Source of the DNA: an uncultured Lysobacteraceae bacterium
Lineage (GTDB): Bacteria > Pseudomonadota > Gammaproteobacteria > Xanthomonadales > Xanthomonadaceae
Assembly: GCA_902825775.1 (NCBI GenBank)
Contig: CADECF010000017.1
Coordinates: 1 to 50,050 of the forward strand
Direction of reading: 5' to 3'
Length of the DNA: 50,050 nt
The position numbers and the translations under genes were made by a program. Within the stretch, counting starts at the first letter, position 1; each line of letters opens with the position of its first letter. This document shows, piece by piece, positions 4,808 to 14,443 of this stretch. The notes under the pieces were generated by a model. The model made no database searches. It had not been told where the DNA came from and saw only the letters and a program-made list of their open reading frames with translations.

Positions 4808-4813
4808 GAGGTT

Positions 4814-4888
4814 TTTGTAGGCGCGGCTTTAGCCGCGGGCCTTTGCCAGCCGATGAACAAAGAGCTCGCGTCTAAAGCCGCTCTTACA
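4814..4888. repeat. intergenic inverted repeat, family A copy 1
   Basis: Two diverging copies of a TTTGTAGG-CGCGGCTTTAGCCGCG-type element face each other across a short spacer. The arms are imperfect: the right arm reads AGAGCTCGCGTCTAAAGCCG. Each arm is itself nearly palindromic (GCGGCTTTAGCCGC). Related copies lie at 26995-27114, 29397-29510 and 31258-31361. All are strictly intergenic, and this one directly follows a stop codon. Confidence 0.75.
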
Positions 4889-4965
4889 GAAAGCCTTGCA
4901 GCGCAGCTTTTGTTTGCCGGTACGGGCATGAGAGGATGGGTTTCGAGCCCCATTCAACGCATTCC

Positions 4966-6552
4966 ATGCGCGACGACCTGCGGATAATGTGGCAGCAAGC
5001 CCGCAACCTCGAGGTCGCTGGCGATCACGCCGGTGCGCTCGCGGCCTATGCGGCGATCGTGCGCGAAGAACCCGGACATCTGCCTGCGCATCTGCGCGTG
5101 TCGGCGTTGGAACAAGCCTTAGGTCATTACCGCCGCTCGCGCGCGCATGCGCTCATGGCCGCAGATGCGGTGCGCAAAGGATACTGGAGCGACATAGGCG
5201 CGGCGACGCGCCTGTTGCTTGCCTTCGACGAGGGCCAGGCGCTGCGCGATCTCATCTACGAGAGCGATTGGAAAAGCGTCGACGTCATCCGCAACTCGCC
5301 GTTGCTGGCCCAGCAGCTATACCTGACCGGCCATGTGGACGATGCGCTTGAGCTGATCGATGCCGTCATGGCCCGCGCGGCCACCAGCGAGCACCTCAGC
5401 TACGCCCGGGCCAATGCGCTGCGCTATAGCGGACGCATGGACGAAGCCACCGAAGAATACGAACGCTGCCTGCGCCTGCAACCGAACTACCCTTACGCGC
5501 ATTGGGCGTTGGCTTATCACCAGAAGTCGGATCCGCCGTTGTCGCGCATCGGACGGATCGAAAAAACACGCGCTACATTGCCCGCCGACGGGTTGGAACA
5601 GGCGTACTTGAGTTACGCCTTTTTCAAGGAATACGACGATGCGGGCGAAACGGAGCTGGCTTGGCAGAACCTAGCCGCCGGCGCGTTGATCAAGCGCCGG
5701 ACGCTTCGTTACGATCCGGATGCGGAGCGCAAGGGTTTCGATGCGCTACGCCAGGCGATCGATGCCGATTTCGTCGGTCGCGGCAGCCCGCCCCGAATCG
5801 ATTCGGACCAACGCCCCATCTTCATCGTCGGCATGCCGCGCACCGGCACCACCTTGCTGGAACGCATCCTAGGCAATCACAGCCAGGTCGCCACCGGCGG
5901 CGAATTGCGCGACTTCAATACCTCGTTGTGCCGGGAGACGGATAGCTTCGTCTCCTCCTCGGCTACGGCTGCGTTGGTCGAACGCCTGCGCGGCGTCGAT
6001 TGGGCGCACGTGGGCGAAGAGTATCTGCAACGCACCGCGTCGCTGTACGCGGGCGGCCGTTATCTGGTCGACAAGAACCCGATGAATTTCATCTATGCCG
6101 GGTACATCGCCAGAGCGCTGCCGCAAGCGAAGATCCTGTGCCTGCGCCGCTCGCCGATGGACGCCTGTTTTTCCAATTTGAAGGAACTCTTCACCAACGT
6201 CGCTTACGGCCACAGCTACGACCAGGCCGAACTCGCGGATCACTACGCCCGCTTCGTAACGCTGAGCGACCACTGGCTGCAGATCATGCCGGAGCGCTTC
6301 GAAATCGTGAATTACGAAGACCTGGTTTCCGACCCCCTGCCCGCTTCGGAACGCATCATGCGGTTCTGCGGTCTCGCCTTCGAGCCGCACAGCATCGACA
6401 TCACCCGGAATACGGCCGCTGTGGCCACCGCCAGCAGCTCCCAGGTTCGGCAGCCGATCCATACCCGAAGCGTGGCCGGTTGGCGAAAATATGCTGCGCA
6501 TCTGCAGCCGCTGCGGGAACGTCTCGAGAGCATGCTTTCGAACGTCGCTTAG
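4966..6552 (+). CDS. TPR-containing sulfotransferase family protein
   Basis: About 528 residues. The N-terminal half (about 1-230) is helical with tetratricopeptide-like units (AGDHAGALAAYAAIV, SGRMDEATEEYERCLRLQPNYPYAHWAL). The C-terminal half is a P-loop-like sulfotransferase: IFIVGMPRTGTTLLERIL near residue 290 is the 5'-phosphosulfate loop, and LPQAKILCLRRSPMDACFSN further on is the 3'-phosphate site for the donor PAPS. This domain order is common in proteobacterial proteins of unknown acceptor, cytoplasmic by lack of a signal peptide. I take ATG 4966 (MRDDLRIMW) as start; an in-frame ATG at 4936 would add ten residues. No PAPS synthesis gene is in the window. Target protein or glycan is not predictable. 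Confidence 0.87.
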   Translation: MRDDLRIMWQQARNLEVAGDHAGALAAYAAIVREEPGHLPAHLRVSALEQALGHYRRSRAHALMAADAVRKGYWSDIGAATRLLLAFDEGQALRDLIYESDWKSVDVIRNSPLLAQQLYLTGHVDDALELIDAVMARAATSEHLSYARANALRYSGRMDEATEEYERCLRLQPNYPYAHWALAYHQKSDPPLSRIGRIEKTRATLPADGLEQAYLSYAFFKEYDDAGETELAWQNLAAGALIKRRTLRYDPDAERKGFDALRQAIDADFVGRGSPPRIDSDQRPIFIVGMPRTGTTLLERILGNHSQVATGGELRDFNTSLCRETDSFVSSSATAALVERLRGVDWAHVGEEYLQRTASLYAGGRYLVDKNPMNFIYAGYIARALPQAKILCLRRSPMDACFSNLKELFTNVAYGHSYDQAELADHYARFVTLSDHWLQIMPERFEIVNYEDLVSDPLPASERIMRFCGLAFEPHSIDITRNTAAVATASSSQVRQPIHTRSVAGWRKYAAHLQPLRERLESMLSNVA

Positions 6553-6562
6553 CGCCTCGAAC

Positions 6563-6592
6563 AAAAAAAACGGCGGCATTCGCATGCCGCCG
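6563..6592 (-). terminator. Rho-independent terminator for the small minus-strand gene
   Basis: On the minus strand a perfect 9-bp stem CGGCGGCAT/ATGCCGCCG (6571-6592) with a 4-nt loop is followed by eight T residues (6570-6563). It lies 24 nt beyond the stop codon of the 39-residue gene and also separates it from the converging sulfotransferase gene. Confidence 0.85.
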
Positions 6593-6615
6593 CTACTACG
6601 CAAAACGTTCGTTAT

Positions 6616-6735
6616 TCAGAACGCGCCGGGTTCGACCGGAGCCGGACACTCTTCGAAGACGCCCGGCGCGGACGAGACCGGCTGCGCGGAAAAGGTGGAC
6701 GAAACGGCGAACAGCGAGAAGAACAGAAAAGACAT
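6616..6735 (-). CDS. small secreted peptide, 39 residues
   Basis: A 39-codon frame supported by three independent signals. A GAGGA ribosome binding site lies 10 nt before the ATG. The first 18 residues form a convincing signal peptide (hydrophobic MSFLFFSLFAVSSTFSA, then Gln). The gene ends 24 nt before a strong terminator with a T8 run. The predicted mature peptide is about 21 residues, Pro-rich and acidic, with one Cys (EECPAP). I recognise no family. A leader peptide, toxin-like peptide or small envelope factor are all possible. It is convergent to the sulfotransferase gene and has no partner on its own strand. Coding status is inferred from these signals, not from homology. Confidence 0.55.
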   Translation of the reverse strand: MSFLFFSLFAVSSTFSAQPVSSAPGVFEECPAPVEPGAF

Positions 6736-7168
6736 GTGTGAAAAATCCTCGGGGGAAGGAGCAGGGATAGCGTCCGCATCGTGCATACAGACGCGAACCA
6801 GGGGACGGGCAGGTGCATCGCGCACGTCGCATGCGGCACTGGCCGCGATGCCGGCATAGCTTCGGCGCAATGGATTCCCGTCGCCAGAACCCATAGACAG
6901 GCGCTGCGCCTGCTATCGGACAGGGCTGCCGGGTGGCATCAGACAGGGGCGCGTCGGGCAGCACGGCTTGAACTCGCGATAATCGCTTATCCCAAGCAGA
7001 CGACCCGGTCGGCGACCTTCAACCAGCAGCGTTACGACGCGGACAAGTTCGGCGCCACGGTTCCGCTTGCAACAACTGGCTGCAATGCGCCGCGATATCT
7101 GCCACATGCGTTCCGGGTACCAACGGCTTCGGTTTAGCGGGCGTCGCCTGCCCTGCGCCGAGCCGCGC
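6736..7168. other. gene-free interval upstream of the small peptide and downstream of arr
   Basis: About 430 bp without a convincing coding frame on either strand. Frames that cross it are Arg/Pro-rich and lack ribosome binding sites. It should hold the promoter of the small peptide gene (minus strand) and the 3' end of arr transcription. I see no clear hairpin with a T-run here, and no tRNA or repeat. Confidence 0.5.
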
Positions 7169-7570
7169 TCACTCTTCGATGGCCTCGATACCCTGCTGCT
7201 TGAGCTTCTCAAGATGATCGTGCATTTCTTTGAGCCGTTCAGGGGAGTGGCCTTGCCAATCCATAACCTCGCCGACGATGCGGAATGGATCGCGGGAACG
7301 GTAAGACTTCGTAGGATTTCCGGGAAATCTCTTATTGGTCAGGTTCGGATCGTCTTCGATGGATCCTGTCGGCTCGACGATGTAGATCCTGCCTCGTCCA
7401 TCGCCGATGGCCAGCTCGGCGCCCCAGATGGCCGCTTCCAGTGTTGCCGCCAGATAGACGAAGTTTCCGTATTTCCTGCTGCCGTAGTTGGAGGCATAGC
7501 CCGGCTCGATGAGGTCGCCCACTTTCAGGTCGGCTTTGGTGCCGTGGTAGTAAATTTCCGAATCGGTCAT
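7169..7570 (-). CDS. arr: NAD(+)-rifampin ADP-ribosyltransferase
   Basis: A 133-residue protein matching the Arr family over its whole length. Conserved blocks are YYHGTKADLKVGDLIEPGY near the N-terminus, NYGSRKYGNFVYLAATLEAA, the AELAIGDGRGRIYIVEPTGS core, DDPNLTNKRFPGNPTKSYRS and GEVMDWQGHSPE. Arr transfers ADP-ribose from NAD+ to the C23 hydroxyl of rifamycins and so blocks RNA polymerase binding. The family is widespread in environmental bacteria and is usually chromosomal. The start at ATG 7570 is set by GGAG seven bases upstream and by family length; the frame stays open much further upstream, but that extension only mirrors the antisense of the next gene. It is a single gene, divergent from the DUF1254 gene to its right. 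Confidence 0.93.
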   Translation of the reverse strand: MTDSEIYYHGTKADLKVGDLIEPGYASNYGSRKYGNFVYLAATLEAAIWGAELAIGDGRGRIYIVEPTGSIEDDPNLTNKRFPGNPTKSYRSRDPFRIVGEVMDWQGHSPERLKEMHDHLEKLKQQGIEAIEE

Positions 7571-7631
7571 CGCGTCGCTCCGGTTTGCTGCCAATTCGAC
7601 AGGCTGGCGATGCTGCATCACGCACTGGGTC

Positions 7632-7660
7632 TTGCCGCAAGCCCCCCTGTGTTGTATAAA
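7632..7660 (+). promoter_or_regulatory. candidate sigma-70 promoter
   Basis: TTGCCG (7632-7637), a 17-nt spacer, then TATAAA (7655-7660), in the 228-bp gap between divergent arr and the first DUF1254 gene and pointing to the latter. The predicted start near 7667 lies just before a terminator hairpin. Pattern only; no experimental support. Confidence 0.45.
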
Positions 7661-7670
7661 TTCATTGTGG

Positions 7671-7695
7671 GGAGGCGCGCGGCGCCTCCTTTTTT
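7671..7695 (+). terminator. intrinsic terminator directly after a promoter (possible attenuator)
   Basis: Perfect 8-bp stem GGAGGCGC/GCGCCTCC with a 3-nt loop, followed by TTTTTT. It is oriented on the plus strand but no plus-strand gene lies to its left. It begins only about 4 nt after the start predicted from the promoter at 7632-7660 and lies about 100 nt before the DUF1254 gene. Confidence 0.7.
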
Positions 7696-7798
7696 CTTGG
7701 GCGTTCAGTAGATATACGGACTCCGCCTCGGCAGTTTTTCGCTGGTGACGGATGCGTGATTTCCGAAGAATGAGGCACCCGACCACCCGGATGCCGTC

Positions 7799-9298
7799 AT
7801 GCCCGCCGTACAGACGAGTGGCTCCTACGAAAGCCGGGCCTTCACGCCCGCGCACCCGAATCTCAAGAACGCCGCAGGTGTTCCGGCCACGCTCGCGAAC
7901 GCACGCTACGTGGAGGCGTTGGCGCGCATGGTCTATTACTGGGGTTATCCCGCGGTGGATACGTGGGGACGCACGAGCGCATGGGAGGTCATGAAAATCT
8001 CCGGGCCCGGCGCCACGATGGGCCTTTTCCCCGGCGGGCCGAAGAACCGGCTGGGTTATCTCGACGACTACATGCCGCCCTCGCAGCGCAAGGTGGTGAC
8101 GCCGAACAACGACACCATTTACGGAGCCGGGTTCGCCGACCTCGGCGAAGACAGCGTAGTCGTCCAGACGCCGATCGATGCGCCTGCCGGTCATTACTGG
8201 ACCGTCCAGATCGTCGATCTGTTCACGACCGTGACGCATCAACTCGGCTCCGCATCGAGTACGCCGGGCGGCAAGTTCCTGCTCGTCGGCCCTCAATGGC
8301 AGGGGGGAAAACCGGAAGGTTTTATCGACATCCTGCGCTCGCCGACAAATCTGGCAGGCGTCTTCGGCCGTAGCTTCACTGCGCATTCGCCGGATTCGAA
8401 ACGGCAGGCGCGAGCCGTGCTCGATCAGATCGGCATCTATCCGTTGCGGGAAGACACGGCGGCGCGGCGCGACTTCGATTGCCAAGCCAGCGCTCGCAAC
8501 AAGGTCTTTCCCCCGGGCGTCACCGCCGAAATGGTGACCGCCGATCCGAACATGCTGCGCGTACGGCCCGTCGATCCGGCGAAATTCTGGGATGTGCTGC
8601 GCGACGCGCTCGATGCGAATCCGGTGGTGTCTACGGTCGATACGCCGATGGCGGAACAGGCGCGCACCCTTCTCGTCCTGCGCGACAGCGGACCGCAATG
8701 GCGCGCGCTGCTCGACCGTGTCGCACTGGAAAGCGATGCCGACCTCCAGCAATCCGCGCGTTACGCGCAGGTCGGCATCGACGCCGGCAACGGGTGGCAG
8801 CGTCAGGACAACGGCGGGGCATGGGGGACGGACTGGTTCGGCCGCGCGCAGGCGGCGGTGGTGTACATCTACGTCAACGATTTCCATGAAGCGATCTATT
8901 CCATCCGGGAAACCGATGCGCAGGGCGAACTGCTCTTCGGGCGTTACCGTTACACGATGACGTTCCCAAAGGACGGCCTGCCGCCGGTAGACCGCTCGAA
9001 AGGCGGATTCTGGTCGCTCTCGATGTACGACAAGGATTACTTCATGCTGGCGACGAGTCCGAACGGCCGGCCGAACATCGGTACGGTCAATCTCGACGCG
9101 AACGAACTGAAATTTTCGCCGGACGGCTCGCTGACCCTGCACCTGTCGCACGCGCCGCCCGCGAGCAAGGACGCGCAGGCCAATTGGCTACCAGCGCCGG
9201 ACGGGCAATTCGCACTGATCGTGCGCACGTACGTGCCGGAACAGCCCATGCTGGACAAGCGTTACACGTTGCCGGACGTGCAGCGTCTGCATGCCTGA
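7799..9298 (+). CDS. DUF1254/DUF1214 protein, paralogue 1
   Basis: A 499-residue protein with an N-terminal DUF1254 region (about 35-180: ARMVYYWGYPAVDTWGR, then TPNNDTIYGAGFADL) and a C-terminal DUF1214 region (about 330-480: YRYTMTFPKDGLPPVDRSKG, FWSLSMYDKDYFM, NWLPAPDGQFALIVRTY). The biochemical function of this pair of domains is not established. Unlike the two following paralogues it has no signal peptide from ATG 7799. The frame is closed by a TGA at 7757-7759 and offers no alternative start between, so either the protein is cytoplasmic or its 5' end has been lost or shifted. No clear ribosome binding site precedes the ATG. Next downstream is paralogue 2 after a 146-nt gap. Confidence 0.82.
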   Translation: MPAVQTSGSYESRAFTPAHPNLKNAAGVPATLANARYVEALARMVYYWGYPAVDTWGRTSAWEVMKISGPGATMGLFPGGPKNRLGYLDDYMPPSQRKVVTPNNDTIYGAGFADLGEDSVVVQTPIDAPAGHYWTVQIVDLFTTVTHQLGSASSTPGGKFLLVGPQWQGGKPEGFIDILRSPTNLAGVFGRSFTAHSPDSKRQARAVLDQIGIYPLREDTAARRDFDCQASARNKVFPPGVTAEMVTADPNMLRVRPVDPAKFWDVLRDALDANPVVSTVDTPMAEQARTLLVLRDSGPQWRALLDRVALESDADLQQSARYAQVGIDAGNGWQRQDNGGAWGTDWFGRAQAAVVYIYVNDFHEAIYSIRETDAQGELLFGRYRYTMTFPKDGLPPVDRSKGGFWSLSMYDKDYFMLATSPNGRPNIGTVNLDANELKFSPDGSLTLHLSHAPPASKDAQANWLPAPDGQFALIVRTYVPEQPMLDKRYTLPDVQRLHA

Positions 9299-9444
9299 AG
9301 AACCGGTGGAAACACAATGGCGACGCAGTTCAAGCACCGCCGTGCTCGACAGCAACTGCGCCGAGGCCTATTGGCCGGATGCCACGATCCTCGATGGATC
9401 CTGGGCCAACGAAATTCGAGCCGGCGCAATGAAGGACTAAGACC

Positions 9445-10818
9445 ATGAACCGCATCGCATTGATATCGTGCTTCGCCGCATTGGCATGCGTGCCGATCGC
9501 CTGCAATCGCTCGACTCCGGAGGTTACGCCGTCCTCGGCGTCGACGGCAGCTTCTGCGCCCGCGCAAGCGAAGTCCGCATACTCCGACCAGGACATCAGC
9601 GACGCCTGGATCTACCTGCTCGGCCGTATGCTCGTGTTGCGCCAGCAGAAGACCGATCTCGCGGAAGGCTTCAAATGGAACGAGATGACCCACCGCAAAC
9701 CCGGCGCGGTGGAGTGGCCGAATCCGAACCTCGACGTCGCCTACTCCGAAGCCTGGGTCGCCGTCGACGAAAACAGCTGCACGATCGTCGCCGTACCCAA
9801 AGTCTCCGGACGCTACTACACCGTGCAGTTCCTCAACGGCTGGGGCGAAACGGTCGCCAATATCAACGAGCGTACGCAGGCGGCGAAGCCCGCGGGCGAT
9901 TTCGCCGTGTGCCTGCAGGACGCGAACGTCAAATTGCCGGAGAACGTCACGCGCATCGACGTACCGGTGAAGTACATGCGCGTGCTGGCGCGCGTCGAAC
10001 TCGGCGACAATTGGGACCAGGCCGTAGCCCTGCAGCACAAATTCGCGATGCGCGCGACGGGAACGCCGGCGCCGCCGACGATTCCGGACACTCCGGACTT
10101 CGATGTGCAGCATCTGCCAGGCGTGGAAGCGTTCGAGAACGCTCCCGCCATCCTCGACAGCGAAAAAGACATCAATCCGGGCATGGAAGGCGTGGCGGCG
10201 AAGGCGCGCGCCATCGCCGAAGGCATCCGCGATGCGGCCGAACGCGCGCGCGTCGACAAGGTGATTCGGGAAAAGGCGATGGCCGATCTGGGCAAGGCCT
10301 CGCCCACGATCGGACATGGCAAGCGTAAGGACGGCTGGGTTCGCCCGGCCGTGATCGGTACTTACGGAGACGACTGGCTCGGCCGCACGCTCGTCAATAT
10401 GGGCGGAATTTGGGCGAATCGGATGGACGAAGTCGTCTACTACAAGAGCAGCGACGACGGCACCGGCACGCAACTCAACGGAACCCATATCTACACGATG
10501 ACGTTCCCGAAAGACGACCTGCCGCCCAAGTACGCGAACTATTTCTGGTCGGTAATCGCGGTCGATCCGGTGTTCGCGCGTGTGCTGCCCAATCCTAAGA
10601 ATCGCTTCCTGCTCAATCGCGAGTCGGGGCTCAAGTACAACGCCGACGGCTCGCTCACGTTGTACTTCGCACCCGAGAAGCCCGCCGATGCTCCCGATCC
10701 GAACTGGCTACCCACGCCGGCAGGCAAGGACTATCGCCTGACGTTCCGTTTCTACGGACCGAAAGGTGGCGTTGCCGATGGCAGCTACTACCCGCCGCCG
10801 CTGGTCAAGAAATCATGA
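9445..10818 (+). CDS. DUF1254/DUF1214 lipoprotein, paralogue 2
   Basis: A 457-residue protein with a lipoprotein signal (VPIAC, Cys20), so probably anchored in the envelope. The DUF1254-type region is divergent (DAWIYLLGRMLVLRQQ, then NPNLDVAYSEAWVAVDE). The C-terminal DUF1214 region is typical (HIYTMTFPKDDLPPKYANY, FWSVIAVDPV, NWLPTPAGKDYRLTFRFYGPKG). AAGGA lies 8 nt before the ATG. Its stop codon overlaps the start of the acid phosphatase gene (ATGA), so the two are probably co-translated. Function unknown; the tight coupling to a periplasmic phosphatase is the best functional hint. Confidence 0.85.
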   Translation: MNRIALISCFAALACVPIACNRSTPEVTPSSASTAASAPAQAKSAYSDQDISDAWIYLLGRMLVLRQQKTDLAEGFKWNEMTHRKPGAVEWPNPNLDVAYSEAWVAVDENSCTIVAVPKVSGRYYTVQFLNGWGETVANINERTQAAKPAGDFAVCLQDANVKLPENVTRIDVPVKYMRVLARVELGDNWDQAVALQHKFAMRATGTPAPPTIPDTPDFDVQHLPGVEAFENAPAILDSEKDINPGMEGVAAKARAIAEGIRDAAERARVDKVIREKAMADLGKASPTIGHGKRKDGWVRPAVIGTYGDDWLGRTLVNMGGIWANRMDEVVYYKSSDDGTGTQLNGTHIYTMTFPKDDLPPKYANYFWSVIAVDPVFARVLPNPKNRFLLNRESGLKYNADGSLTLYFAPEKPADAPDPNWLPTPAGKDYRLTFRFYGPKGGVADGSYYPPPLVKKS

Positions 10819-11654
10819 GGAAACATGCCTTGCTGTTTTCGTCCTGCGTGTGCGCCGCGACTTTGGCCGCGTGCGCCGGCGGCGCCGTCGAAAAAAATCT
10901 TGCGCCGCCAACCACTGTCGCCAAGGTGCCCGAACTCAAGCCGGGCGTTCCCGCCGGATACCTGGGCCGCGCGCTGCCCGACAGCCTGGCCTTGGTGCCA
11001 TCGCCGCCGGCCGCGGGTTCGCCCGCGTTCGCGCAGGACGAAGCGATCCACACCGCAGCGCAGGCTTTGCGAAACGGTCCGCGCGGCACGCTGGCGACAG
11101 CGGATGCCGATCTGCATTTTCCGCATGCGCCCAGCGCCTTCGCCTGCGCGCTGGACAAGTCGATCACGCAGTCGGACACGCCGCGCCTCTATCTGCTCAT
11201 GCAGCGCACGATGGTCGACGCCGGCATGGCGACGTATCGCGCGAAGGACCATTACAAGCGCGAGCGTCCGTTCGTCCATTACAAGGAATCGACGTGCATG
11301 CCCAGCGATGAGGCGGCGTTGCGCAACGACGGATCTTACCCGTCGGGACACACGTCGATCGGATGGACCTGGGGCCTAATCCTCGTGGAGCTGGCGCCCG
11401 AGCGCGCCGATGCGTTGCTGGCGAGGGCGCGATCGTTCGGCGAAAGCCGTCTGGTGTGCAACGCGCATTGGCAGAGCGACATCGTCGCCGGACGCACGGT
11501 CGCCGCCGGCGCGGTCGCGCGCCTGCATGCGGATGAAACTTTTCTCGCCGACCTCGCTGCGGCCCGAACGGAGATTCAACGCGCCAGCGCTTCGGACGCT
11601 GCGAAGTGCGCCGCCGAGGCCGCCTTGGTCGCGCCGATTGCGGGCGCCCTCTGA
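10815..11654 (+). CDS. class A non-specific acid phosphatase (PAP2 superfamily)
   Basis: A 279-residue phosphatase with the full three-part vanadate-type active site: KX6RP at 144-152 (KDHYKRERP), PSGH at 176-179 inside the class A signature GSYPSGHTS, and SRX5HX3D at 211-222 (SRLVCNAHWQSD). The nucleophile should be H218 with H179 as acid/base. An N-terminal signal ends LAAC (Cys20), so it is exported and perhaps lipidated. PhoN/PhoC relatives hydrolyse a broad range of phosphomonoesters in the periplasm. The ATG overlaps the stop of the DUF1254 gene upstream by the sequence ATGA. The degraded tRNA-Ser copy begins 10 nt after its stop codon. Confidence 0.92.
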   Translation: MRKHALLFSSCVCAATLAACAGGAVEKNLAPPTTVAKVPELKPGVPAGYLGRALPDSLALVPSPPAAGSPAFAQDEAIHTAAQALRNGPRGTLATADADLHFPHAPSAFACALDKSITQSDTPRLYLLMQRTMVDAGMATYRAKDHYKRERPFVHYKESTCMPSDEAALRNDGSYPSGHTSIGWTWGLILVELAPERADALLARARSFGESRLVCNAHWQSDIVAGRTVAAGAVARLHADETFLADLAAARTEIQRASASDAAKCAAEAALVAPIAGAL

Positions 11655-11664
11655 CTATAGGCTT

Positions 11665-11722
11665 TGGCGGAGAAAGTGGGATTCGAGCCCACGGAGGGTT
11701 TGACCCATCGCCGGCTTTCAAG
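11665..11722 (-). pseudogene. degenerate 3' half of tRNA-Ser
   Basis: About 58 bp matching the intact tRNA-Ser(TGA) at 13270-13359 from the encoded CCA end through the T arm and variable arm into the anticodon loop, with roughly 6-8 mismatches, in the same orientation. Similarity stops near the anticodon; the 5' half is missing, so it cannot be a working tRNA. It lies directly after the acid phosphatase gene. Confidence 0.85.
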
Positions 11723-11764
11723 CACGGAACCTCAGCAATCGTCGATCTAACTTAGGAGTAAATC

Positions 11765-13234
11765 ATGCGCTCGAGAGCTACCCCGTTCGCAATTGCCTTG
11801 CTGATCCTTGCCATCGCCGGTTGTTCGCGCGAACAGTCGCCCGCGAATACAGCAACCCATGGCCAGGCCAAGCCGAACGCCACGAGCATCGCAGCTCCAT
11901 CAGCGGATATGTCCGAGCAAGAGGCGTACGCAATCGCCAAGGACGCATATGTCTACGCCTACCCGATGATGCTGACGTACACGACCCTGCGAAAGCTGAG
12001 CAATTTCGCCGAGCCCATCCCGGGCGATACTTTCGGCCCGCCCAACCAGTTCCATCACGCGCTCGCCTACCCCAATGCCGACGACAAGATCGTCGTCCGC
12101 ACCAATGTGGATACGCTGTATTCAGCGGCAACGCTCGACCTGAAGTCCGAGCCGCAAGTGTTGTCGGTGCCGGCGACCGACCGTTACTTCATGCTGCCGA
12201 TGCTGAGTTTGTGGTCGGACGTATTCGCCGTGCCCGGTACGCGCACTACCGGTAGGAGCACGGCGCGCGATTTCCTGGTGGTCGGACCGCAGTGGCGTGG
12301 CGACGCGCCGGCCGGGCTCGAACTGATCCGTAGCCCCACCCGCTACGTGTGGATCATCGGCCGCACCCAAACCAACGGTCCTTCCGACTACGACAACGTC
12401 CACAAGATCCAGGCCGGCTACAAGCTGCGACCGCTGTCGGCCTGGGGCAAGGGCGATTACACGCCGCCCAAAGGCACGGTCGACCCCAGCATCGACATGA
12501 AAGCCGATCCGCCGAAGGCAGTGGAGCAGATGGATGCGGCGACCTACTACGGCCAGTTCGCCGAACTGCTGAAGGACAACCCGCCCAACCAGGTCGACTA
12601 CCCGATCGTGCATCGCCTCGAGCGCACCGGCTTCACGGTCGGCGAAAGTTTCGACCTGGGCAAGCTTCCGGAGAGGATTCGCGCGGCGTTCGAGCGCGGC
12701 CATGCCGACGGCAAGGCATCGGTAGTGGCCGAAGGGAATAAGGCCGCCGGCAAAGGCGGCAAGGGTTGGGTTTACAGCCTGAGTGGCGGCACCTACGGCA
12801 CGGACTATCTGTACCGCGCGGCCGTCGCCAATTTTGGCCTGGGCCTGAATTTGCCGCAGGACGCCGTCTATCCCTCACTCTCCAACGACAACGAAGACCG
12901 CCCCCTCGATGGCAATCACGATTACGTGCTGCACTTCGACAAGGACAAGTGGCCGCCGGTAGACGCGTTCTGGTCAGTCACGGCTTACGACGCCGACGGT
13001 TACTTCATCCCAAACGCGATCAAACGCCAAGCCATCGGCGACCGCGATAAGCTCGTCGCCAATGCCGACGGCTCGCTCGACCTATACATCCAAACCGATT
13101 CGCCGGGCGCGGACAAGGAAAACAACTGGCTGCCTGTCGCCAAGGCGCCATTCACGCTATTGCTGCGCATGTACGCGCCGCGCGAAGAATTCCTAGAAGG
13201 AGGATGGGAACCCCCTCCGGTCGTACGGAAGTGA
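11765..13234 (+). CDS. DUF1254/DUF1214 lipoprotein, paralogue 3
   Basis: A 489-residue exported protein with lipobox LAIAGC (Cys20). The DUF1254 region (about 45-190) is the most canonical of the three: DAYVYAYPMMLTYTTLRKL, TNVDTLYSAATLDLKSEPQV, then DRYFMLPMLSLWSDVF. The DUF1214 region (about 370-480) has HDYVLHFDKDKWPPVDAFWSV (first 20 residues) and NWLPVAKAPFTLLLRMYAPR. AGGAG precedes the ATG by 8 nt. The gene is the only content between the tRNA-Ser fragment and intact tRNA-Ser, and its closest recognisable relatives are not its neighbours by sequence: its N-terminal half differs strongly from paralogues 1 and 2. Separate acquisition is therefore more likely than a recent duplication. Function unknown. 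Confidence 0.87.
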   Translation: MRSRATPFAIALLILAIAGCSREQSPANTATHGQAKPNATSIAAPSADMSEQEAYAIAKDAYVYAYPMMLTYTTLRKLSNFAEPIPGDTFGPPNQFHHALAYPNADDKIVVRTNVDTLYSAATLDLKSEPQVLSVPATDRYFMLPMLSLWSDVFAVPGTRTTGRSTARDFLVVGPQWRGDAPAGLELIRSPTRYVWIIGRTQTNGPSDYDNVHKIQAGYKLRPLSAWGKGDYTPPKGTVDPSIDMKADPPKAVEQMDAATYYGQFAELLKDNPPNQVDYPIVHRLERTGFTVGESFDLGKLPERIRAAFERGHADGKASVVAEGNKAAGKGGKGWVYSLSGGTYGTDYLYRAAVANFGLGLNLPQDAVYPSLSNDNEDRPLDGNHDYVLHFDKDKWPPVDAFWSVTAYDADGYFIPNAIKRQAIGDRDKLVANADGSLDLYIQTDSPGADKENNWLPVAKAPFTLLLRMYAPREEFLEGGWEPPPVVRK

Positions 13235-13269
13235 CTTGCTGGCAGCACGCTGCCGCACGGGAACAGAAA

Positions 13270-13359
13270 TGGCGGAGAGGGTGGGATTCGAACCCACGGA
13301 TGGTTTGACCCATCGCCGGTTTTCAAGACCGGTGCCTTAAACCGCTCGGCCACCTCTCC
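13270..13359 (-). tRNA. tRNA-Ser(TGA)
   Basis: A 90-nt class II tRNA with encoded CCA. The acceptor stem GGAGAGG pairs with CCTCTCC, there is a long variable arm, the T loop is GGTTCGAATCC, and the anticodon loop CTTGAAA gives TGA. The sequence agrees almost base for base with proteobacterial tRNA-Ser(UGA). Confidence 0.97.
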
Positions 13360-13377
13360 GGTTGCTTCACTTAGCGC

Positions 13378-13404
13378 ACCGGCCGCATTGCGCGGCCGGT
13401 TTTG
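13378..13404 (+). terminator. intrinsic terminator, plus strand
   Basis: Stem ACCGGCCGC/GCGGCCGGT (9 bp, 5-nt loop), then TTTTGATTTT. It is oriented for plus-strand transcripts, that is for the DUF1254 gene reading antisense through the tRNA-Ser, and it also separates that unit from the converging LysR gene. Confidence 0.7.
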
Positions 13405-13435
13405 ATTTTATAGCGGAAACGAAACCCTGCCCCGC

Positions 13436-14443
13436 TCAGGCGATTGTCGCATGCGCCGCTTCGTCGGCGCTGCGCTTGCCGGGTTTGCCGCCCTTCTCCG
13501 CCGGTTTGCCCTTCTGGCAGTTCTGGCAATCCAGGCGCGAGGATTCGATCAGCGGCGGCAGTTTTTCGGCCAGGAAGTCGATGAAGACGCGCACCGCCGG
13601 CAGCAGGCCGCGGCGCGAGGCGAAGACGGCGTGGGCGATGCCCTGCGGCAAGCGCCATTCCGGCAACACCACTTCCAGCTCGCCCTTGCGCACCGCTTCG
13701 GCGCACAGGGTTTCGGGCAGCATGGTGATGCCCAGGCCGCCCTTGGCCAGCGCCATCAGCATCGGGAAATCGAAGCCGGAGACGCGCGGCTTGAGGTCGA
13801 TCTTGCGAACCTCGCCATCGCGGCCCTGCAGCTCCCAGCGCTGGCGCGCCTCGTCCTCGTTCATGGTCAGAGTGACGTGGTCGTGCAGCTCTTCGGGCGT
13901 GTTCGGGCGGCCGGCGCGATCCAAATATTTCGGACTGGCGACCAGCAATTCCTGGATCTGGCCGAAACTGCGCATCACCAGGCTGCCGTCGTCGTCCAAC
14001 TTGGAACGCACGCGCACGGCGACGTCGAAGCCTTCGTTGATCACATCCACGCGCCGGTTGCTCACGTGCAACTGCACGCGCACCTGCGGAAATTTGGCCA
14101 GGAATTCCGGCAGCAGTGCCGGCATCTGCTGCTGCGCCAAACCGACCGGCACGCTGACGCGAACCACGCCGCGCGGCTCGGCGCTGAGCCGGTCGACGAC
14201 TTCGCGCGCGGCTTGGGCTTCGGCCAGCATCGATTGCGCGTGGCGATGCACGCTCTGGCCGACATCGGTCACCGCGAAACGGCGCGTCGAACGCTGCAAC
14301 AAGCGCACGCCCAGATCGTTTTCGAGCTGGCTGATGCGCCGGCTCAGGCGCGACTTGGGAATGCCCAGCGCACGTTCGGCGGCGGCGAAACCGCCGTGGT
14401 CGACGACGGCGGAAAAGTAGTAAAGGTCGTTGAGATCCTGCAT
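13436..14443 (-). CDS. LysR-family transcriptional regulator
   Basis: A 335-residue LysR-type regulator. The winged helix-turn-helix occupies residues 1-60 (DLYYFSAVVDHGGFAAAERA, then KSRLSRRISQLENDLGVRLL), followed by a periplasmic-binding-protein-like effector domain (about 90-295). The C-terminus carries an unusual Lys/Gly-rich tail with a CQNC pair (about 300-335) beyond the normal end of the family. It is divergent from the azoreductase gene with 115 bp between the starts, the classical arrangement in which LysR controls both its own gene and its neighbour. The effector is unknown; electrophiles or quinones would fit the target. The CQNC pair might bind metal or sense redox state (inference). 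Confidence 0.92.
   Translation of the reverse strand: MQDLNDLYYFSAVVDHGGFAAAERALGIPKSRLSRRISQLENDLGVRLLQRSTRRFAVTDVGQSVHRHAQSMLAEAQAAREVVDRLSAEPRGVVRVSVPVGLAQQQMPALLPEFLAKFPQVRVQLHVSNRRVDVINEGFDVAVRVRSKLDDDGSLVMRSFGQIQELLVASPKYLDRAGRPNTPEELHDHVTLTMNEDEARQRWELQGRDGEVRKIDLKPRVSGFDFPMLMALAKGGLGITMLPETLCAEAVRKGELEVVLPEWRLPQGIAHAVFASRRGLLPAVRVFIDFLAEKLPPLIESSRLDCQNCQKGKPAEKGGKPGKRSADEAAHATIA

Follow-up and report, generated by a model that had tools for sequence, protein, structure and literature searches.

A tRNA-Ser(TGA) fragment and a single DUF1254 gene: the probable remains of an integrated island

The tRNA-Ser(TGA) locus and its displaced 3′ part

The window, that is, the whole stretch of DNA analysed, is one complete contig (C17, 50,050 bases) among the 26 that make up a 3.76-Mb genome. 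It carries an intact tRNA-Ser(TGA) gene, to the right of which lie genes for a LysR regulator, a flavodoxin-like protein, seryl-tRNA synthetase and two TonB C-terminal proteins. To its left, at a repeat-to-repeat distance of ∼1.6 kb, lies a partial copy of the same tRNA (the half-copy), and DUF1254 gene 3 is the sole gene between the two. Further left are genes for a sulfotransferase, a rifampin ADP-ribosyltransferase (Arr; 7169-7627, minus strand, in the variable left stretch and, with a GC of 0.566, the lowest of 23 ORFs compared), DUF1254 genes 1 and 2, and a PAP2 acid phosphatase; the first bases of the phosphatase gene overlap the last of gene 2. The features of the locus are as follows.

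4930-4950, minus strand: putative older tRNA-Ser 3′ remnant (weak), T-arm-like, between the PEP mutase and sulfotransferase genes; 18/21 bases identical
10815-11654, plus strand: PAP2/acid phosphatase gene on the far side of the half-copy (Pfam PF01569, ORF list)
11665-11722, minus strand: displaced, decaying 3′ part of tRNA-Ser(TGA), nt 33-90 (putative far attachment site); 53/58 bases identical
11723-11764: junction between half-copy and gene 3; blastn likeness to the relatives in G032 and L061 begins only at 11910, within the gene
11765-13234, plus strand: DUF1254/DUF1214 gene 3, 489 aa, lipoprotein-type N-terminus (Pfam PF06863 and PF06742)
13235-13269: junction of 35 bases separating gene 3 from the tRNA, the expected place of an integrase if arranged as in G029
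13270-13359, minus strand: intact tRNA-Ser(TGA), CCA at 13270-13272 (ARAGORN; Rfam tRNA, 62.7 bits)

The half-copy aligns with 13270-13327 without gaps and shares the orientation of the intact gene. It extends from the CCA end to the anticodon loop (tRNA nt 33-90), as the initial annotation had described, although the six to eight mismatches reported there are in fact five in 58 bases (91% identity), at 13279, 13280, 13292, 13301 and 13320 in the coordinates of the intact copy. In a search of its own 3.76-Mb genome the match has an E value of 3.5e-17, and its local score of 91 compares with 27 or less for window tiles clear of both copy and tRNA, so that the likeness is beyond chance. Identity stops at both limits, with no extra base on either side. 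The T arm is retained in the predicted fold of the intact 3′ part and is gone from that of the half-copy.

The half-copy sits outside conserved protein domains, between the PAP2 stop (11654) and the start of gene 3 (11765); a mechanical ORF on the minus strand (11197-11721) overlaps the half-copy, and the domain check behind this statement covered the PAP2 gene and gene 3. The intact tRNA is identical at 90/90 positions in two congeners (G001 and G003) and 84% identical in a third (G002).

The single gene between the repeats

Gene 3 contains both Pfam domains of the DUF1254/DUF1214 family, with scores of 151.3 and 120.4 bits against cut-offs of 22.2 and 25. Its N-terminus includes IAGC, which we take to be lipobox-like, and the N-terminus of the acid phosphatase is presumably of lipoprotein type likewise. 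Judged by its sequence, the product of gene 3 is probably a secreted DUF1254/DUF1214 lipoprotein. Comparison with a relative in G032 (79% identity over 469 residues) gave a dS of 1.01, which is near saturation, a dN of 0.135 and hence a dN/dS of ∼0.13, indicating that gene 3 is maintained by purifying selection. Genes 1, 2 and 3 are 31–34% identical in pairwise comparisons; gene 3 is therefore not a recent local duplicate.

The claim that the interval holds only this third DUF1254 paralogue and no integrase is borne out: one gene occupies 11765-13234, and tblastn with the integrases of two elements described below (in G029 and G689) gave no hit at E values up to 1, whether in the interval or across the window. 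The DNA of the interval shows no similarity to the elements of G029, G664 and G689 other than two 14-base matches (E 0.31). A comparison of GC and codon use, proposed along with that claim, did not distinguish gene 3 from the other two DUF1254 genes or from its neighbours. A foreign composition was accordingly rejected, since genes 1–3 and the acid phosphatase gene resemble neighbouring genes in GC, GC3 and codon use, within a comparison set whose spread is widened by 3 of 17 ORFs of low GC3 that may be in the wrong frame. The short junction at 11723-11764 may hold part of an attachment-site arm together with the ribosome-binding site.

A simple scan of 10800-13500 gave no promoter-like site and four terminator-like sites in all, against 2.7 expected by chance. 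The only one of these on the plus strand is at 13378-13400, past the tRNA, so that transcription of the acid phosphatase gene may continue into gene 3. That site is a hairpin with a T-run just past the tRNA and would end gene 3 transcripts only after antisense passage through tRNA-Ser; similar hairpins are found past tRNA-Ser in G001 and past an array of tRNA 5′ parts in G003.

Relatives of gene 3 at E values up to 1e-140 were found in 4 of 390 family genomes, counting the one that carries the window, and in none of the three congeners. Others, 65–76% identical, were found in Bradyrhizobium, Mesorhizobium, Mycoplana, Reyranella, Ensifer and Cupriavidus, and at 58% in Paraburkholderia (25 loci, 34–76%). 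This patchy spread would be consistent with horizontal gain. No tRNA-Ser was seen near gene 3 relatives in the 21 of 26 loci scanned, L072, L076, L079, L080 and L083 having been left out. A second DUF1254 gene lies at most 8 kb away in 7 of the 25 loci, some of which are short contigs, and a Bradyrhizobium locus (L059) has relatives of genes 2 and 3 (67% and 76%) within 5 kb. The initial view that a third DUF1254 gene beside two others is an odd coincidence is thus not supported. G032 has relatives of genes 1–3 spread over three places; at two of these a gene-1-like gene is paired with a relative of gene 2. Searches of plasmids with the DNA and with three proteins returned only distant DUF1254, PAP2 and LysR matches among the matches listed.

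tRNA-Ser loci in related genomes

Sixty relatives were compared by DNA, providing 18 tRNA-Ser loci that were picked partly for extra tRNA hits. The right flank of the tRNA is LysR in 15 of the 18 (of the other three, L044 stops 415 bases past the tRNA), whereas the left flank varies. No displaced 3′ part was seen in the tRNA-Ser loci of congeners G001, G002 and G003, where the strict pattern described below is also without a match, and the same loci have no match to genes 1 and 2 or to the acid phosphatase gene. Gene 3 itself is unmatched in G001 and G003, and its matches in G002 are of 36–38% only and lie elsewhere. Neither the copy nor a close relative of gene 3 was thus found in any of the three congeners; the sample includes no other strain of the same species. 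The initial annotation had predicted relatives with acid phosphatase directly before tRNA-Ser. None was found; relatives of the acid phosphatase lie off-site, at 61% identity in G003 (∼470 kb away) and 43% in G002. Neither an exact empty site nor a complete version of the island was found in any genome compared.

A counterpart of the half-copy is present in G029 (L045), where a 58-base piece, identical at 58/58 positions to that genome's own tRNA, lies 10 kb from it and extends no further on either side. It was found by plain BLAST, independently of the pattern search described below. Its limits are those of the half-copy to the base at both ends, the fragment ending in the anticodon loop. Genes for a tyrosine integrase, a phage capsid family protein and an AAA_25 protein lie in the 10-kb interval, the integrase ORF stopping 66 bases short of the tRNA, along with an int-alpA RNA and three further ORFs without a Pfam match. 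The identity of limits at both ends favours an integrase over slippage. By our own estimate, which concerns one independent comparison, the chance of such agreement (within ∼1 base, for random break points in a 90-base gene) is roughly one in a thousand.

Integrase genes elsewhere were also considered. In G020 a PF00589-matching gene lies 85 bases from tRNA-Ser. The genome that carries the window has 11 PF00589 places, none of them on the window contig; one weak place is ∼0.9 kb from tRNA-Ser(GGA), and the best relative of the G029 integrase (33%) adjoins tRNA-Ala. Among the six of these 11 places that were inspected, the two strongest not being among them, no resident integrase for tRNA-Ser(TGA) was evident.

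A pattern for the displaced 3′ part matched 5 of 395 family genomes. One match (G478) was an intact variant tRNA and was dropped, leaving G000, G029, G664 and G689; because an exact pattern was used, 4 of 395 is a lower bound. A second pattern, for the 5′ part, matched three of the 395 (G582, G664 and G689). The loci with a split tRNA are as follows.

L100, 16900-18450: split-tRNA element of G664
L105, 1461-10043: split-tRNA element of G689
L114, 18884-19019: split-tRNA locus of G582

The inserts of G664 and G689 interrupt the native tRNA-Ser within its anticodon loop: one end of each is flanked by the 3′ part and the other by 41 bases of the 5′ part, and both ends share the core GTTTTCAAG. 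Since the pattern demands divergence right after CAAG, the agreement of G664 and G689 at that end arises by construction, while the reach to the CCA end is not forced. The inserts, of 1452 bases in G664 and 8484 in G689, each contain a whole tRNA-Ser(TGA) of their own, with ∼76% identity across the part that matched; G582 likewise possesses one (79%), but no 3′ part was seen in the nearly 19 kb to its left. In these genomes a heterologous tRNA-Ser(TGA) is supplied in place of restoring the native gene. The cargo in G689 comprises an integrase with an arm-binding domain, an AAA_25 protein, MerR, MerT and a heavy-metal-associated protein, and that in G664 a single trypsin-like gene plus an ORF of 66 codons running across the tRNA, with no integrase match in the insert. 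The G664 insert is the nearest size parallel to the window interval.

This parallel bears on whether the window interval ever had an integrase of its own. A short cassette with a tRNA 3′ part might have been integrated by the integrase of another element, and the G664 insert, with its single trypsin-like gene and own tRNA-Ser, is the kind of arrangement that this would produce. Deletion gives the same anatomy, however; a second copy of the cassette was found neither in the same genome nor at the tRNA-Ser loci compared, and the integrases of known extent here (G029 and G689) belong to elements of 8–10 kb. We therefore regard movement in trans as possible but unlikely. It is less likely still that tRNA-Ser(TGA) serves this family as a loading dock for integrase-less one-gene cassettes moved by the integrases of other elements; were it so, single cargo genes would accrete beside the tRNA, and the window and G664 would hold two such cassettes.

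Other pieces of tRNA-Ser are scattered among the relatives. Fragments with other limits, from other families, include a 33-base 3′ piece in G040 and 19-base 3′ repeats in G054, where (L041, 3402-3750, oriented) repeats of period 165, two copies and the tRNA itself, lie downstream of tRNA-Ser and each open with its last 19 bases. In 8 (L036, L038, L039, L040, L041, L042, L043 and L044) of the 18 loci, a set picked in part for extra hits, one to three 5′ parts of 31–46 bases precede the intact tRNA, spaced by 76–165 bases (273 in L044). The spacers are similar within a genome in L036, L040, L041 and L042, and several of them, in the sense of the tRNA, appear by eye to lengthen the anticodon stem into a long hairpin. 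A 3′ copy in G019 (L038) was discarded as a probable assembly artefact, as it abuts N and repeats its own flank. An Rfam sX4 match beside the tRNA scored 28.3 bits against a cut-off of 70, and no sX4 reached the gathering threshold in eight relative loci.

Such pieces lend some colour to the idea that the half-copy arose by slippage or unequal crossover of the tRNA 3′ part, with no integrase involved, since tRNA-Ser pieces have evidently been duplicated in relatives. Nevertheless, most of those arrays consist of 5′ parts and lie upstream of the tRNA, and in genomes where at least two copies are seen the spacers resemble one another; the arrays differ from the window half-copy in side, part and spacer. 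The window has just one 3′ part, which coincides exactly in its limits with the G029 repeat and brackets a unique gene. A slip duplication is accordingly improbable. Reduction by deletion is the simplest of the three origins offered in the initial annotation, of which movement in trans is possible and slip duplication unlikely.

Origin of the interval and comparison with known systems

We conclude that the half-copy and gene 3 are probably what is left of an old island at tRNA-Ser, which has lost its integrase and kept one selected gene. On the comparison of sequences, integration at the tRNA is well supported as the origin, because the limits of the half-copy equal base for base those of an element with an integrase, and because neither the copy nor a close relative of gene 3 was found in three congeners; the initial reading of the repeats as a trace of integration is upheld to this extent. 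The contrast between the conserved LysR side and the variable other side, the PF00589 gene of G020 and the splits in the anticodon loop in G664 and G689 lend further support. Against an island count the absence of an integrase match, native-like GC and codon use, the want of an exact empty site or complete island, the lack of DNA likeness to the elements of G029, G664 and G689, and the fragments with other limits in G040 and G054.

From the repeat and its counterpart in G029 we infer that an integrase acted here and that the rest of the island was lost by deletion. An element with a tyrosine integrase would have entered tRNA-Ser(TGA) by recombination in the anticodon loop; tRNA nt 33-90, brought in on its attachment site, would have rebuilt the gene at 13270-13359, and the original 3′ part would have been displaced to the far end at 11665-11722. 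A later deletion would have removed the integrase and nearly all else, leaving one cargo gene, and the displaced part, free of selection, would have drifted at 5 of its 58 bases.

The old island may not have been the only one. A tentative extension of this explanation, which we consider rather less likely than not to be correct, is that two or more old tRNA-Ser islands lie one behind another in ∼4950-13269, with the half-copy as the inner boundary and 4930-4950 as the outer. The gap between PEP mutase and tRNA-Ser measures 8.46 kb in the window, against 5.15 kb in G001 and 34 bases in G002 (no PEP mutase match was found in the 14 kb examined at the G003 locus), and genes 1 and 2 and the acid phosphatase gene are unmatched in the tRNA-Ser loci of the three congeners. 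The 18 of 21 bases shared by the putative remnant, equalled in 0 of 2000 shuffles of 4808-4968, weakly suggest earlier rounds at the same tRNA. A score of 26 also arises elsewhere in the window, on the other strand, which makes the match weak on the scale of the window; tests of five further short stretches of it revealed no tRNA remnant. Moreover, a relative of the sulfotransferase lies near tRNA-Ser in G001 and G003 without a remnant before it, the stretches concerned scoring 17 (115/200 shuffles) and 10 (200/200), respectively. In G003, a gapped match of score 24 between sulfotransferase and tRNA, with 1/200 shuffles as good and coming from one of five stretches tested, could be either a chance likeness or another remnant.

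The single old island that we favour can be set beside those catalogued by Islander. The Islander report (PMC4383910) describes islands in tRNA genes, of which an anticodon-centred class makes up 2083 of 3919. Like them, the window has a restored tRNA, a 3′ fragment downstream in the same orientation and a crossover in the anticodon loop; unlike them, its interval has no integrase gene and measures ∼1.6 kb against a criterion of at least 2 kb, so that the filters described there would reject it. By these published criteria the interval is not a complete island, but it is probably derived from one.

The G029 element has the same repeat limits, the same 58 bases and the same tRNA, but is 10 kb long, with integrase, capsid and AAA genes and identical repeats. 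G664 and G689 share with the window a displaced 3′ part of tRNA-Ser(TGA), and G664 also its size of ∼1.5 kb, its single gene and its lack of an integrase match, yet both interrupt the native tRNA and supply a complete heterologous one. Gene 3 matches in sequence the DUF1254/DUF1214 chains of PDB 3u07, 3vb9 and 2p3y (VPA0106, VPA0735), which are named uncharacterized or hypothetical, the likeness leaving aside comparison of the N-termini. Among the papers listed on DUF1254/DUF1214, on anticodon-loop islands at tRNA-Ser, on mini-islands lacking an integrase, on islands that bring a tRNA, on sX4 and on tRNA-Ser islands of Lysobacter, none was recognised as the same case.

On this reading the interval is an ordinary genome fossil. 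If read correctly, it shows how far an island can shrink, down to a single gene under selection whose origin is betrayed only by a worn tRNA fragment, and such remnants form a class that integrase-based finders such as Islander reject by design. In this family tRNA-Ser(TGA) is an integration site for elements of more than one design.
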